Source: Clostridia bacterium (lineage in GTDB: Bacteria > Bacillota > Clostridia > Oscillospirales > Acutalibacteraceae). Taken from it: a stretch of DNA of 64,000 bases. Below, piece after piece: positions 4,250 to 9,201 of the stretch (position 1 is its first letter; every line of letters starts with the position of its first letter). The position numbers were made by a program, and so were the translations under genes. Location: the NCBI GenBank assembly GCA_017416485.1, contig JAFQCH010000018.1, positions 124,001 through 188,000 on the forward strand, in the 5' to 3' direction. The notes under the pieces were generated by a model. That model ran no database searches, was not told where the DNA came from, and was given only the letters and a program-made list of their open reading frames with translations.

Positions 4250-6862
4250 TTGGCTGAATTTACACCTATGATGCGACAGTATTTCAAAATCAAAGAGCAG
4301 CATAAGGATGAGATCCTTTTTTACCGCCTCGGCGATTTTTATGAAATGTTCTTCGATGATGCCATCACAGCATCGCGGGAACTCGATCTTGTTCTGACGG
4401 GACGTGACTGTGGTCAGGCAGAGCGTGCACCCATGTGCGGTGTTCCGTTCCATGCCGCAGAAACGTACATCGGCAAGCTTATTGCAAAAGGTTTTAAGGT
4501 TGCCATCTGTGAGCAGACGCAGGATCCGTCACAGGCAAAGGGCTTGGTGGAACGCGACATCGTTCGCATTGTTACCCCCGGTACCGTTACCGAAAGTGCA
4601 ATGCTGGATGAATCCAAAAACAACTACCTTGCCTGTATTTACAAATTGAATGATACCGCGGGGCTTTGCTTCTGCGATGTTTCCACCAGTGCTGTTTATG
4701 TATGCGAGTTGCAGGGTGATCGTTTGAGTGAACGCATCATCAACGAGCTTGCAAAATATTTGCCGACGGAGATTCTGCTTAATGCAAAAGCCGCGGCTGA
4801 TAAAAAACTGACCGAATACATAAGCAGAAAAATGAATACGGCATCGTCCGTAATCAATGACAATGCTTTTACGTTGCAGGATTTCACCGTCAGCACCGAA
4901 CGGCATTTTAAAAAAAGTCTTTCCGAACTCAACCTTGCCGACAAGCCTTGTGCTTTGTGTGCACTCGGCGAAACCATGACCTATCTTCGCAATGCACAAA
5001 GAAATGACCTTTCGGGTATCGTTTCCGTTAATGTGTATACGCAGGACAAGTTCATGAAACTCGATGCTGCGGCAAGACGTAACCTGGAACTGACCGAAAA
5101 CGAACGCCGCAGAGAGAAAAAAGGTTCTCTGCTGTGGGTACTCGATAAAACCAAAACCGCCATGGGCAAACGCATGATACATGCTTGGCTCGAACAGCCG
5201 CTTGTCAGCGTCGGCCCCATCACACAGCGGCAGAATGCAGTGGAAGAACTGTATCACAACACCGCCGTGCGCAGTTCTCTTGTTGAAATGCTTGCAGACA
5301 TCAACGACCTTGAACGCATTGTTACCCGTATTTTGTACGGTACCGCGAATGCAAAGGAACTGCGTTCTCTTTCGCTGACTTTAGCGGCATTGCCTGCATT
5401 CAAAAATCATCTTGCCGGAACACAAAGCAATCTCTTGCGTGATCTGACAGGGAAGATCGATCCCTTGCCCGATTTGCAGGCATTGATCGAAGCTGCCATT
5501 TGTGACGATCCTCCGTTTTCCGTGCGTGAAGGCGGCATGATCCGCAACGGCTACAATGCCGAGCTGGACGAATTGCGCAAAATTGAAAACGGCGGCAAGT
5601 CTTATCTTGAAGAAATTGAAAACCGTGAACGCGAGCGAACCGGCATTAAAAAACTGAAAGTTGGCTACAACCGCGTGTTCGGTTATTATATCGAAGTCAG
5701 CAATCAGTTTAAAGAAAATGTGCCCGAAGATTACATCCGCAAACAGACCCTTGTAAACGGCGAACGTTTTATCACAAGCGAGCTCAAGGATCTTGAAGCA
5801 AAAGTGCTCGGTGCGCGTGAACGCATTTGCAGACTTGAATTTGAATTGTTCAGTTTTGTCCGTCAGCAAGCGGCAGATGTGCAACTTGTTATCCGCACAA
5901 CCGCAGCCGCTTTGGCGCAGATTGATGTTTTGTGCTCTTTGGCGGAAGTTGCCGTGCGCAACGGCTACACAAGACCCATCGTGGATCTGTCCGACAAATG
6001 TATCATCAAAGAGGGCAGACACCCTGTGGTTGAAAAATATCTCACGGATGCACCTTTTGTTCCGAATGATACCTTGCTTGACTGCAACGAAAATCGTTGT
6101 GCTCTGATCACAGGCCCCAACATGGCAGGTAAATCCACCTACATGCGTCAGATCGCTTTGATTGTCATTATGGCGCAGATCGGCTCCTTTGTTCCCGCTT
6201 CTTCGGCAGAAATCGGCATTGTGGATGCAGTGTTCACAAGAGTCGGTGCATCGGATGACCTTGCGGCAGGGCAATCTACCTTCATGACAGAAATGAGTGA
6301 GGTTGCCTCTATCCTTTCTACTGCTACAGCAAGAAGCCTTGTGATTCTTGACGAAATCGGCAGAGGTACTTCCACATTTGACGGCATGAGCATCGCAAGA
6401 GCCGTTCTTGAATACACCAACGACCGCAAAAAAATCGGCTGTAAAACCCTGTTTGCAACACACTACCATGAACTGACAGAAATGGAAAATGACTTGCAGG
6501 GCATTAAGAATTACAACACTTGTGTCAAAAAGCGCGGTGATGAAATCACATTCCTGCGCCGCATTGTCAGAGGTACCGCAGACGGCAGCTACGGTATTGA
6601 AGTTGCCCTGCTTGCGGGAATCCCGAAGTCGGTTGTTTCCCGTGCAAAAGTTATTCTAAAACAACTGGAAGAAACAGACGGCACAAAATTGCCTGTTAAA
6701 ATAACGGCAGAAACTGTTGAAGAAGAACCGCAATTGCAGATGTCTTTTGCCGACAGTCGCAACGATGCTTTGATTGAAGAGATCCGCGCATTGGATCTCA
6801 ACACATTGACCCCCATTGAAGCATTGACAAAACTTTATGAAATAAAAAAGAAACTTGATTGA
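4250..6862 (+). CDS. mutS: DNA mismatch repair ATPase MutS
   Basis: Recognises base mismatches and small loops and recruits MutL. 870 residues, normal length. The N-terminal mismatch-binding domain has the FYEMF motif (Phe-X-Glu wedge) near residue 27-31, then connector, lever and clamp regions, and the ABC-type ATPase with Walker A GPNMAGKS (about residue 621), Walker B LVILDEIGRGTST and ATHYHEL. The start is TTG 4250 behind AAAGGAGG. The stop codon is followed immediately by the inverted-repeat element at 6863, which separates it from mutL. Confidence 0.98.
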   Translation: MAEFTPMMRQYFKIKEQHKDEILFYRLGDFYEMFFDDAITASRELDLVLTGRDCGQAERAPMCGVPFHAAETYIGKLIAKGFKVAICEQTQDPSQAKGLVERDIVRIVTPGTVTESAMLDESKNNYLACIYKLNDTAGLCFCDVSTSAVYVCELQGDRLSERIINELAKYLPTEILLNAKAAADKKLTEYISRKMNTASSVINDNAFTLQDFTVSTERHFKKSLSELNLADKPCALCALGETMTYLRNAQRNDLSGIVSVNVYTQDKFMKLDAAARRNLELTENERRREKKGSLLWVLDKTKTAMGKRMIHAWLEQPLVSVGPITQRQNAVEELYHNTAVRSSLVEMLADINDLERIVTRILYGTANAKELRSLSLTLAALPAFKNHLAGTQSNLLRDLTGKIDPLPDLQALIEAAICDDPPFSVREGGMIRNGYNAELDELRKIENGGKSYLEEIENRERERTGIKKLKVGYNRVFGYYIEVSNQFKENVPEDYIRKQTLVNGERFITSELKDLEAKVLGARERICRLEFELFSFVRQQAADVQLVIRTTAAALAQIDVLCSLAEVAVRNGYTRPIVDLSDKCIIKEGRHPVVEKYLTDAPFVPNDTLLDCNENRCALITGPNMAGKSTYMRQIALIVIMAQIGSFVPASSAEIGIVDAVFTRVGASDDLAAGQSTFMTEMSEVASILSTATARSLVILDEIGRGTSTFDGMSIARAVLEYTNDRKKIGCKTLFATHYHELTEMENDLQGIKNYNTCVKKRGDEITFLRRIVRGTADGSYGIEVALLAGIPKSVVSRAKVILKQLEETDGTKLPVKITAETVEEEPQLQMSFADSRNDALIEEIRALDLNTLTPIEALTKLYEIKKKLD

Positions 6863-7140
6863 TTAGGGTGACGGGTGTAATCTGAACCCGCCCGAAAACG
6901 GCTATTTTTAAGTCTTTTCGGCGTTTTATCCGTGAAAGGCGACAGCCTTCCTGCGGTCTCAACCCTAAAAATCCAATAAAAATATCTCGTTTTCGGGTCG
7001 AAGATTTTTTACAGTGCGGATTTTTGGCGAGACAAGACACAAAACGCAGAAAATCCTCGACGGATTTTCGAGTATTTTAACGAAGTATCGGCGGAAATCC
7101 GCCTGTAAAAAACGGGCTCGGATTATACCCGTCACCCTAA
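6863..7140. mobile_element. MITE-like 278-bp inverted-repeat element between mutS and mutL
   Basis: The 299 bases between mutS and mutL are almost wholly one element. Its 28-bp ends (6863-6890 and 7113-7140) are inverted copies differing at three positions, all transitions; the outer part reads TTAGGGTGACGGGT. TA lies just inside each end, which would fit a TA target duplication as made by IS630/Tc1-type transposition. A second inverted pair lies inside (7005-7023 with 7095-7112, one base gap), plus local hairpins AAGGC/GCCTT (6936-6949), GAAAATCC/GGATTTTC (7049-7069) and GGCGG/CCGCC (7090-7103). No open frame of note is inside, so it would be non-autonomous. Transcribed RNA could fold into a long branched hairpin just upstream of the mutL ribosome site. 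Confidence 0.7.
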
Positions 7141-7161
7141 CTGACAAAGGAGGATGTGAAT

Positions 7162-9201
7162 ATGCCGAAAATCAACGTCTTGCCCAAAGAGATCTATTCT
7201 CTCATTGCGGCAGGTGAAGTTGTCGAGCGTCCGTCCTCCGTTGTCAAGGAAATGCTTGAAAACAGCATCGATGCGGGTGCAAAACGTGTGACGGTTGAAA
7301 TTCGTTCCGGCGGCGTTGCTTTTCTGCGCGTAACTGATGACGGTTGCGGCATTGCCCCCGAAGATGTTGAAAACGCATTTGTGAGCCACGCAACAAGTAA
7401 AATCAGCAAACAGGCTGATCTGGATGCCATTGCAACACTCGGCTTTCGCGGCGAAGCACTTGCTTCCGTTGCGGCAGTATCGCGTATTGAGATGCTCACA
7501 AGGGTGCACGATGCCGATTTCGGCACACGTTATGTGATTGAATGCGGTGAAGAGAAAACAAAAGAAGAAAGCGGCTGTCCGGTCGGCACCACCATCATTG
7601 TCCGCGATTTGTTTTGCAATACGCCTGCCCGAATGAAATTCCTGAAAAAAGATACCACGGAAGGCAATTATGTGGCGGATGTGGTTACCAAAACAGCGCT
7701 TTCGCATCCCGAAATTTCATTCCGTCTGATTCGTGACGGAAAAGAAACCGTGCAAACCCCCGGCAGCGGGAAATTGTACGATACTGTTTATGCCTTGTTC
7801 GGCAGGGATTTTGCCGAAGGGCTGGCCGTTTGCGATTACGAGCTTGACGGAATCCGTGTGAAAGGATTTATTACAAAACCTCTGTTCGGCAGACCCAACC
7901 GCAATATGCAATACTTCTATGTCAATCAGCGTTATGTCCGCATTCCGACCGCGGCTGCCGCTTTGGACGAAGCATTCAAAAATAATATCATGGTCGGAAA
8001 ATTCCCGGGGGCTGTGCTGAATATCGATATAGCACCCGGCAGTGTGGATGTGAATGTGCATCCCGCTAAAACCGAAATTCGATTTTCCAATGACCGTCGG
8101 GTTTTTGAATCGGTTTACTATGCCGCCAAATCCGCCCTTGCAAAAGGAGACACCCGACCCTCATTTTCAGTTAATAAACAAACTCCGCGCCCTGCTGTTG
8201 CGCAAACGCAAGGAAGCCAGATTTCTTTTAAACAACAAATGGAGTCTGCCTGGGGAAATAAGCCATCCCAACCGGCAGTTGAACAACCGGTTGAACAACC
8301 TGTTAAACCTCCGAAAATAACATATGCAGTTCCTGTCTCGCAACCCCCTGTTTCATCTGTGATTGATGTGGTCGAAGATTCTGTTGCAATAACAGAAAAA
8401 ACAGACGAAATGAAGCCTGTTGTAACGGGATTTGTTGCATCTGTTATGAAAAAGTCTTTGGCTGAAACTTTGCAAGGCCAAGCTGCTCCTGTTTTTTTGC
8501 AGGACAGTGCACCGTCTTTTGTTGAAACCGCAAAAAAGGTGTTGGAAGAACAAAAACAATCCCAAAACCTTGCTCCTACTGTTTATGAAGAAAAAATCGA
8601 GGAACCGCAAGTCGTAAAAACGGAATCCGAAATCCCGTTGCGCATTGTCGGGGAATTGTTCAAAACATATATTCTTGCCGAATACGGCGATAAATTCATC
8701 ATCTGCGACAAGCATGCCGCCCATGAACGCATTCTGTTTGAAAAAATCAAAAAGAATGCGCAAACGGGCAATACTCAGATGTTACTTGTGCCCGTGCGTA
8801 TAGCTTTGAGCGCCGGTGAGTATGATGCCGTGCTTGAAAATCTGCTTTTGTTTGAAAAAGCAGGATACATGATCGAAGATTTCGGTGTCGGCTGTGTTAT
8901 TGTTCGCGGAGCCCCGCTTGAGCTTGCCAATGCCGATATTGCTTCGCTTGTGTGCGAATTGGCAGGGGAATTGAAAAAAGGAAAACTTTCCATGATACCC
9001 GAACGGCTCGATTGGCTGTATCACAACACCGCTTGCCGTGCCGCCATCAAAGCAGGGGATTCCACAAACCCTGTTGAACAAGCAGAACTTATTCGCATGG
9101 TGTTGGCGGATGATAATATCCGCTATTGCCCGCACGGCAGACCCGTGCTAACAGAAATCACGCGTTATGAACTTGAAAAACAGTTCGGCAGACTCGGATA
9201 A
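7162..9201 (+). CDS. mutL: DNA mismatch repair protein MutL (endonuclease type)
   Basis: GHL-family ATPase that couples MutS recognition to strand incision. 679 residues. The N-terminal ATPase has ENSIDAGA, DDGCGI and GFRGEAL motifs; a Pro/Gln/Val-rich linker (about 330-485, with a 12-base repeat coding VEQP) joins it to the C-terminal domain. That domain carries DKHAAHERILFE, a variant of the DQHA(X)2E(X)4E metal-binding endonuclease motif, plus ACRAAIKAGD and CPHGRP, so the protein should be a nicking MutL. The start is ATG 7162, 8 bases after AAAGGAGG; the in-frame GTG at 7156 is too close to that site. Confidence 0.97.
   Translation: MPKINVLPKEIYSLIAAGEVVERPSSVVKEMLENSIDAGAKRVTVEIRSGGVAFLRVTDDGCGIAPEDVENAFVSHATSKISKQADLDAIATLGFRGEALASVAAVSRIEMLTRVHDADFGTRYVIECGEEKTKEESGCPVGTTIIVRDLFCNTPARMKFLKKDTTEGNYVADVVTKTALSHPEISFRLIRDGKETVQTPGSGKLYDTVYALFGRDFAEGLAVCDYELDGIRVKGFITKPLFGRPNRNMQYFYVNQRYVRIPTAAAALDEAFKNNIMVGKFPGAVLNIDIAPGSVDVNVHPAKTEIRFSNDRRVFESVYYAAKSALAKGDTRPSFSVNKQTPRPAVAQTQGSQISFKQQMESAWGNKPSQPAVEQPVEQPVKPPKITYAVPVSQPPVSSVIDVVEDSVAITEKTDEMKPVVTGFVASVMKKSLAETLQGQAAPVFLQDSAPSFVETAKKVLEEQKQSQNLAPTVYEEKIEEPQVVKTESEIPLRIVGELFKTYILAEYGDKFIICDKHAAHERILFEKIKKNAQTGNTQMLLVPVRIALSAGEYDAVLENLLLFEKAGYMIEDFGVGCVIVRGAPLELANADIASLVCELAGELKKGKLSMIPERLDWLYHNTACRAAIKAGDSTNPVEQAELIRMVLADDNIRYCPHGRPVLTEITRYELEKQFGRLG

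Follow-up and report, generated by a model that had tools for sequence, protein, structure and literature searches.

A transposase-less inverted-repeat element between mutS and mutL belongs to a probable MITE family with a covarying Y-shaped foldback in an order of gut Clostridia

The gap between mutS and mutL in this Clostridia genome holds an inverted-repeat sequence that is very probably a non-autonomous mobile element, a bacterial MITE, whose family is found across an order of gut Clostridia. Insertion takes place precisely at TA, with a preference for TTAA-like sites, and duplicates the TA; the family has moved recently, between species too. Nearly the whole element is a conserved Y foldback, consisting of a terminal stem and two arms maintained by compensatory changes, and this inner fold has persisted while the ends outside it were replaced, left and right to match. 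The copy that separates mutS from mutL is a species-specific insertion.

Locus and boundaries

Within the window (the whole stretch of 64,000 nucleotides that was analysed), mutS and mutL are the long ORFs of the region and lie either side of the element, which has no transposase gene of its own (Table 1). A repeat search of the window returned outer arms at 6863-6890 and 7113-7140, each of 28 nt and complementary at 25 of 28 positions. The earlier note on this DNA had described 28-bp ends differing by transitions only, and the three differing pairs are indeed all transitions; its further point, that these differences preserve G-U pairing, holds for two pairs and fails for the third, which is an A-C on the plus strand. 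The TA noted just inside each end marks the edge of the element proper, which runs from TA to TA, and the outermost T6863 and A7140 are flank, outside the element, in keeping with a TTAA-like target. The extent originally proposed, from the mutS stop (TGA, 6860-6862) to five bases before the mutL ribosome site, is thus too wide by these two outermost bases, while its spacing stands: the Shine-Dalgarno sequence AAAGGAGG occupies 7146-7153 and begins five bases past 7140. The repeat search also recovered the noted local hairpins and second, nested inverted pair (6891-6900 with 6988-6997, and 7005-7014 with 7103-7112).

Folded as RNA, the stretch has an energy of -126.8 kcal/mol; 200 shuffled versions average -71.4, and none of them folds as well (z = -12). 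Between 6780 and 7260 there are four terminator-like sites, on both strands and all from one palindrome, and no promoter-like sites. Rfam gave no match to the element, its sole hit being below threshold and outside the element.

Table 1. Features of the mutS-mutL locus, in positions of the window
Feature	Position	Strand	Remarks	Basis
Mobile element, including duplicated TA at each end	6864..7139	+	276 bp	TIR/flank table, empty sites, full copies elsewhere in genome
Left TA of target duplication	6864..6865	.		Single TA in empty sites of other copies
Right TA of target duplication	7138..7139	.		Single TA in empty sites of other copies
Left terminal inverted repeat, 5' side of terminal stem	6864..6890	+		Helix 1 covariation
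Right terminal inverted repeat, 3' side of terminal stem	7113..7139	-		Helix 1 covariation
Arm 1 of Y fold, long imperfect hairpin	6891..6998	+	Ends approximate	Covarying pairs, helices 2-4
Arm 2 of Y fold	7004..7112	+	Ends approximate	Covarying pairs, helices 5-6, covariance model R1
Arm 2 core, most conserved	7034..7084	+	Conserved non-Watson-Crick oppositions	Consensus AAGGCACAAAACGCAG..AATCCT..GGATT..CGAGTATTTTAAC
mutS, host gene upstream	4250..6862	+		NCBIfam TIGR01070 / NF003810
mutL, host gene downstream	7162..9201	+		NCBIfam TIGR00585

Copies, target sites and mobility

The element's own genome (G000) contains 12 matches, of which four are full copies at 91-100% identity and the rest are partial or shorter end pieces. 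One partial match, at 87%, is a diverged copy of about 265 bp, and the arm-2 covariance model added one more, bringing the diverged copies to about two. Matches at E ≤ 0.001 were found in 11 of 59 relatives. Flanking sequence differs from copy to copy, the exception being one insertion common to two genomes (L004 in G000:C31 and L021 in G017:C34), which has 100% identical flanks and was counted once; either a longer piece of DNA was transferred recently or a contig was mis-binned.

Empty sites were looked for by linking the two flanks of each of eight insertions and searching four genomes for the result; 12 comparisons were examined. The cleanest pair is a filled site and its paralogous empty counterpart within one genome (L020 and L286 of G014), where joining the flanks through a single TA reproduces the empty sequence at 121 of 122 positions. 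A second site (L002) has two empty counterparts (L279, L287) with TA or CA at the junction, and the counterpart of L020 in the element's own genome (L276) is empty, but carries a 10-nt deletion at the site. At the L005 site, what G014 and G017 retain of an older insertion is no more than a short end-like remnant. For L009, L019 and L004, and for L005 in G001, the surroundings of the site have diverged, so that the comparison defines no junction. Among the 78 trimmed copies described below, T precedes the TA in 43 of 77 and A follows it in 47 of 76. The earlier note had read the stretch as a transposase-less inverted-repeat element, to be established as a MITE by dispersed copies and empty TA sites; that reading is borne out by full copies dispersed through the genome, by copies in relatives, and by single-TA empty sites in the filled/empty comparisons.

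Two copies in different genomes (L003 of G000, L011 of G017) show 100% identity along the element and sit at unrelated sites, and two copies in G014 (L010, L020) are 98-99% identical to each other and to that pair. The mutL genes of G017 and G014 are respectively 76 and 90% identical to that of the element's own genome. As copies with 100% identity sit in genomes whose mutL genes are only 76% identical, the family has moved recently, also between species.

Distribution, lengths and ends of the family

An exact core pattern with 20 specified positions, scanned against 84,980 species genomes, gave at least 116 matching stretches; among the matches listed are MAGs named Clostridia, Oscillospiraceae, Ruminococcaceae and Eubacterium, mainly from animal gut. 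Of 216 genomes belonging to the order, the arm-2 covariance model detects the family in 50 (29 of 117 genera); in a phylum-wide sample it does so in 4 of 398 genomes, all four from the same order. Viral contigs gave no match to the exact pattern, plasmids and phages gave none in a distant blastn search, and a search of the open-access (PMC) literature returned no paper on this MITE family.

The collected loci yielded 102 near-full hits, including three reverse-strand duplicates. Thirteen for which TA was not clear at both ends, and eight whose ends paired weakly, were also removed, leaving 78 trimmed copies, from which 30 representatives were kept under 88% identity, with a mean pairwise identity of 0.63. 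Trimming also demanded matched ends and a length of 272-284 bp, within which the copies measure 272-281 bp. Many unrelated types occur among the outer 18 bp (TAGGGTGAC.., TAAGCAAACACG.., TAAGCAAGCGAG.., TAGCCAAAGCATT.., TAACCATAGC..), left and right being matched within a copy, as the trimming also required. All 78 trimmed copies start with TAG or TAA at both ends, so that a stop codon whose TA is the target is re-formed by the insertion; 13 of 27 left-hand ORFs of at least 90 codons are closed by the first codon of the element, which is suggestive, and only suggestive, of targeting of stop codons.

Some copies are rearranged or nested. One (L093, G001:C5) is interrupted by a second repeat of about 118 bp, and another (L003, G000:C23) is itself nested within a repeat similar to it. 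A copy in G014 is split (L091, C51; L092, C43) by another mobile element, the outer sequences of which are mutual inverted repeats. One 47-bp element is made up of just the two terminal repeats and a short loop (L198:120-166). Elsewhere two solo ends point the same way, separated by about 0.9 kb that contains two small ORFs (L006:1501-1532 and 2413-2431). Two full elements with different end types adjoin directly in opposite orientation (L239:265-817, and L129 around 1290).

A conserved, compensated Y fold

Covariation was scored with an APC-corrected G statistic over the 78-row alignment. Of 37,128 column pairs, those of the consensus structure supply 18 of the top 20 and 29 of the top 50, and several other high-ranking pairs are further nested pairs of arm 1. 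In element numbering, covarying pairs include 31-131, 35-127, 42-119, 64-96 and 68-92 in arm 1, and 142-249, 147-244, 149-242, 166-226 and 187-205 in arm 2. A strand-neutral structure, restricted to Watson-Crick pairs (111 pairs, 31 aligned copies), pairs 87.0% of cells, compared with 33-48% when it is slid along the alignment. Across the 31 diverged copies 84 of the 111 pairs have changed on both sides, doubly changed cells number 577 (194 when shuffled; 109-151 in slid controls), and the covariation score is 0.436 against 0.145 in shuffles, 0 of 500 of which scored as high. Relatedness is not taken into account by the shuffles, and the structure comes from the same sequences; the slid controls, which do keep relatedness, stay well below the observed count.

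The terminal stem (helix 1) has 94.5% of cells paired and 23 of 27 pairs changed on both sides; its pairs 1-7 form in all 31 copies, and five of the seven occur as two to four pair types. In helix 3 of arm 1, 73% of cells are paired and many are unpaired. Arm 2 retains conserved non-Watson-Crick oppositions, in alignment columns G186/A229, C187/A228, A192/A223 and G195/A220, together with a bulged A197, each side being conserved in at least 29 of 31 copies. The fold may have been retained because it is useful to the element, as a DNA foldback that would unite both ends for transposition; alternatively, it might make a structured insert tolerable within operons in either orientation.

DNA or RNA, and which way round

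Were RNA on one strand the object of selection, G-U oppositions would be expected to exceed A-C. The earlier note had taken the G-U-preserving changes as a hint of RNA-fold selection, which the family does not uphold: in the terminal stem G-U and A-C are equal (27 v 30; in a second count 29 v 28, sign test p = 1) and the arms lean in opposite directions, with per-pair sign tests that are not significant. Arm 1 leans to A-C (47 G-U v 98 A-C; second count 50 v 66, per-pair sign test p = 0.56), and arm 2 to G-U (74 v 42, p = 0.004, with few columns responsible; second count 36 v 13, sign test p = 0.24). A strong G-U excess in the arms obtained with an RNAalifold structure (43 v 17 and 93 v 6) was rejected, since that structure allowed G-U on the plus strand; with the Watson-Crick-only structure, which is neutral between strands, the consistent signal disappears. 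Mean RNA energy slightly favours the minus strand (-117.2 v -111.9 kcal/mol). Together these data are compatible with a foldback acting as DNA, or with selection on RNA whichever way the element lies; a fixed leader RNA does not fit.

The orientation of copies in operons is not random. Among 99 distinct copies, 39 lie between gene pairs running with the element and 15 between pairs running against it (p = 0.0015), and the counts are 31 and 12 where both flanking ORFs are at least 450 nt, ORFs being called crudely, by length only. A Shine-Dalgarno and start signature adjoins the right end only in 41 cases and the left end only in 16. A replication-strand cause is unsupported: flank GC skew is positive on the element's strand in just 47 of 91 cases, so the bias tracks gene direction rather than skew.

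This bias, the end-specific start signatures, and the conserved non-Watson-Crick oppositions of arm 2 are what lend some credit to a refinement of the MITE reading, in which the fold is selected as RNA in any transcript, against polarity, processing or decay, and so lets copies survive in operons. We consider this possible, though on the unlikely side, given that neither strand has a consistent excess of G-U over A-C, that the minus strand folds slightly better, and that the ORF calls behind the bias are crude.

A more tentative idea, to which we attach a rather low probability, is that the element is recognized by its shape and not by its end sequence, the mobilizing machinery, perhaps host-encoded or an unrecognized enzyme, reading the Y foldback and the non-Watson-Crick core of arm 2. 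This would explain how the 18-bp ends came to be exchanged many times, left and right together, with the inner fold lasting across the order. Matched arms might also be kept by mutation, if template switching at the quasi-palindrome copied one arm onto the other, as a wholly foldback element, equal G-U and A-C in the terminal stem, and paired changes at the ends would allow; we find this doubtful, as the same process would have corrected the conserved mismatches of arm 2 as well, and arm 1 retains its many unpaired cells.

The search for a mobilizing enzyme

The element is shorter than 500 bp and without a transposase gene, as in the published definition of a MITE (PMC10969869), and has terminal inverted repeats, a TA duplication, and dispersed copies with filled and empty sites. 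Its movement would depend on a TA-specific cut-and-paste transposase acting in trans, whose recognition of the ends would have changed repeatedly. Four transposase families were sought in nine carrier genomes and yielded no candidate. A TA duplication is shared with MITEs derived from IS630/Tc1-mariner elements, but IS630-type DDE_3 was found in 0 of 9 carriers; of the families expected in hosts of IS5/IS427-type derivatives, DDE_Tnp_1 occurs in 2 of 9, without matching ends around the hits, and DDE_Tnp_1_2 in 0 of 9. Nor was an autonomous parent detected, either as an end pair enclosing a transposase in the collected loci or by a TIR pattern allowing 2 mismatches in 35 genomes. An apparent 4.6-kb end pair (L215) was rejected, as it pairs a decayed half element with a solo end that is unrelated, and the split copy of G014 (C51/C43) was rejected as an element with cargo, since another mobile element interrupts it at the break. 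Draft MAGs lose multicopy elements, and the absence of a transposase from them is weak evidence.

Y1 transposases match in five of the nine carriers at E ≤ 0.001 and exceed the cut-off in four, including the element's own genome, which, with the foldback anatomy, recalls hairpin elements moved as single-stranded DNA by Y1 (HUH/RAYT-like) transposases, such as REP/REPIN. Such a route is very unlikely here: Y1 is missing from G001, G020, G028 and G053 and below cut-off in G017, some of these carriers hold many copies, and TA is duplicated at insertion, when to our knowledge HUH insertion makes no target duplication.

Several points weigh against the MITE reading itself, which we nevertheless hold with considerable confidence: the want of a candidate mobilizer in these carriers; the combination of inner conservation with end turnover, which is the reverse of a simple internal-deletion derivative of an IS; the non-random orientation in operons; and an indel at the one empty site considered next.

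The mutS-mutL copy as a private insertion

A mutL match was found in 23 of 26 genomes of the genus, and the element is absent from all 21 readable relative junctions before mutL, only the original locus having scored; at three of the 21 (L078, L083, L084) the stretch before mutL is not mutS-like, so that they attest absence of the element and not an intact junction. In the sister genome G014, 29 bases without the element separate the mutS stop from the mutL start, and copies are present at other sites. The empty site there differs from the joined site by a 4-nt indel and a few substitutions, leaving the exact TA unproven at that site.

The earlier note had allowed that the sequence might prove a leader RNA if it occurred only between mutS and mutL and covaried. 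Covariation there is, but across dispersed copies at many loci, and it therefore characterizes the mobile family rather than a mutS-mutL leader. A structured leader or intergenic RNA of the operon, tuning mutL relative to mutS, would account for the strong RNA fold, the placement 5 nt ahead of the Shine-Dalgarno, and covariation within the family, yet it is extremely improbable given absence from those 21 junctions where one conserved orthologous locus would be expected, the same sequence at many unrelated loci, terminal-stem non-Watson-Crick pairs unskewed to either strand, and no Rfam match. Nothing points to tuning of mutL: the insert is absent in the 21 readable relatives and mutL retains its own Shine-Dalgarno. 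Most likely, the position between mutS and mutL is a local accident and the insertion is close to neutral, a function for either gene being without support here. The locus serves as a caution that a strongly folded, covarying stretch ahead of a repair gene can be a passenger.

Relation to known elements

Bacterial MITEs are usually short, limited to a species group, and assumed to be decayed IS copies that keep the ends of the IS. The present family shows the opposite, with an inner fold compensated across an order and ends turned over in matched pairs. Its many tens of full copies form a natural data set for asking whether a mobilizing enzyme sees fold or end sequence, and the same copies bear on why MITEs survive inside operons.

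Among the nearest descriptions is that of RUP of Streptococcus pneumoniae, a mostly intergenic repeat for which mobilization by IS630-Spn1 is proposed (PMC2229807). RUP is likewise non-coding, with terminal inverted repeats, TA at both ends, and a TA target (PMC2229807); it is described as 107 bp long, in one species group, and with a matching IS630, whereas the present element is 276 bp, order-wide, and without IS630-type transposases in its nine carriers, a comparison of descriptions and not of sequences. Correia/NEMIS (107-155 bp) and ERIC (127 bp) are also TA-ended foldback repeats, but in that review they are shorter, armless stem loops formed by end pairing, in contrast to a terminal stem with two covarying arms (PMC2229807). 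The effect of ERIC in Yersinia operons, where upstream mRNA is affected in an orientation-dependent manner, offers a precedent for the bias seen here (PMC2229807). CIR of Caulobacter and Brucella share a two-arm fold conserved between species, but appear in the review's table without terminal inverted repeats, where both arms of the present element stand on a closed terminal stem (PMC2229807).

In the Bacillus cereus group, bcr1-bcr18 include MITE-like repeats, often in UTRs or operon gaps, and some with conserved secondary structure, but in another genus, and the MITE-like (bcr1-3) and structured (bcr10, bcr18) repeats are separate families (PMC3446304). Chunjie (235 bp) and QMITE resemble the element in size range and MITE anatomy, but their lengths vary widely, against 272-281 bp for those copies here that could be trimmed under a rule allowing only 272-284 bp (PMC10969869). 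The most fitting classification is a new family of bacterial MITEs with an unusual structure. Its interest lies at the level of the family, which unites an order-wide distribution, a covarying Y fold, matched turnover of the ends, and no visible mobilizer.
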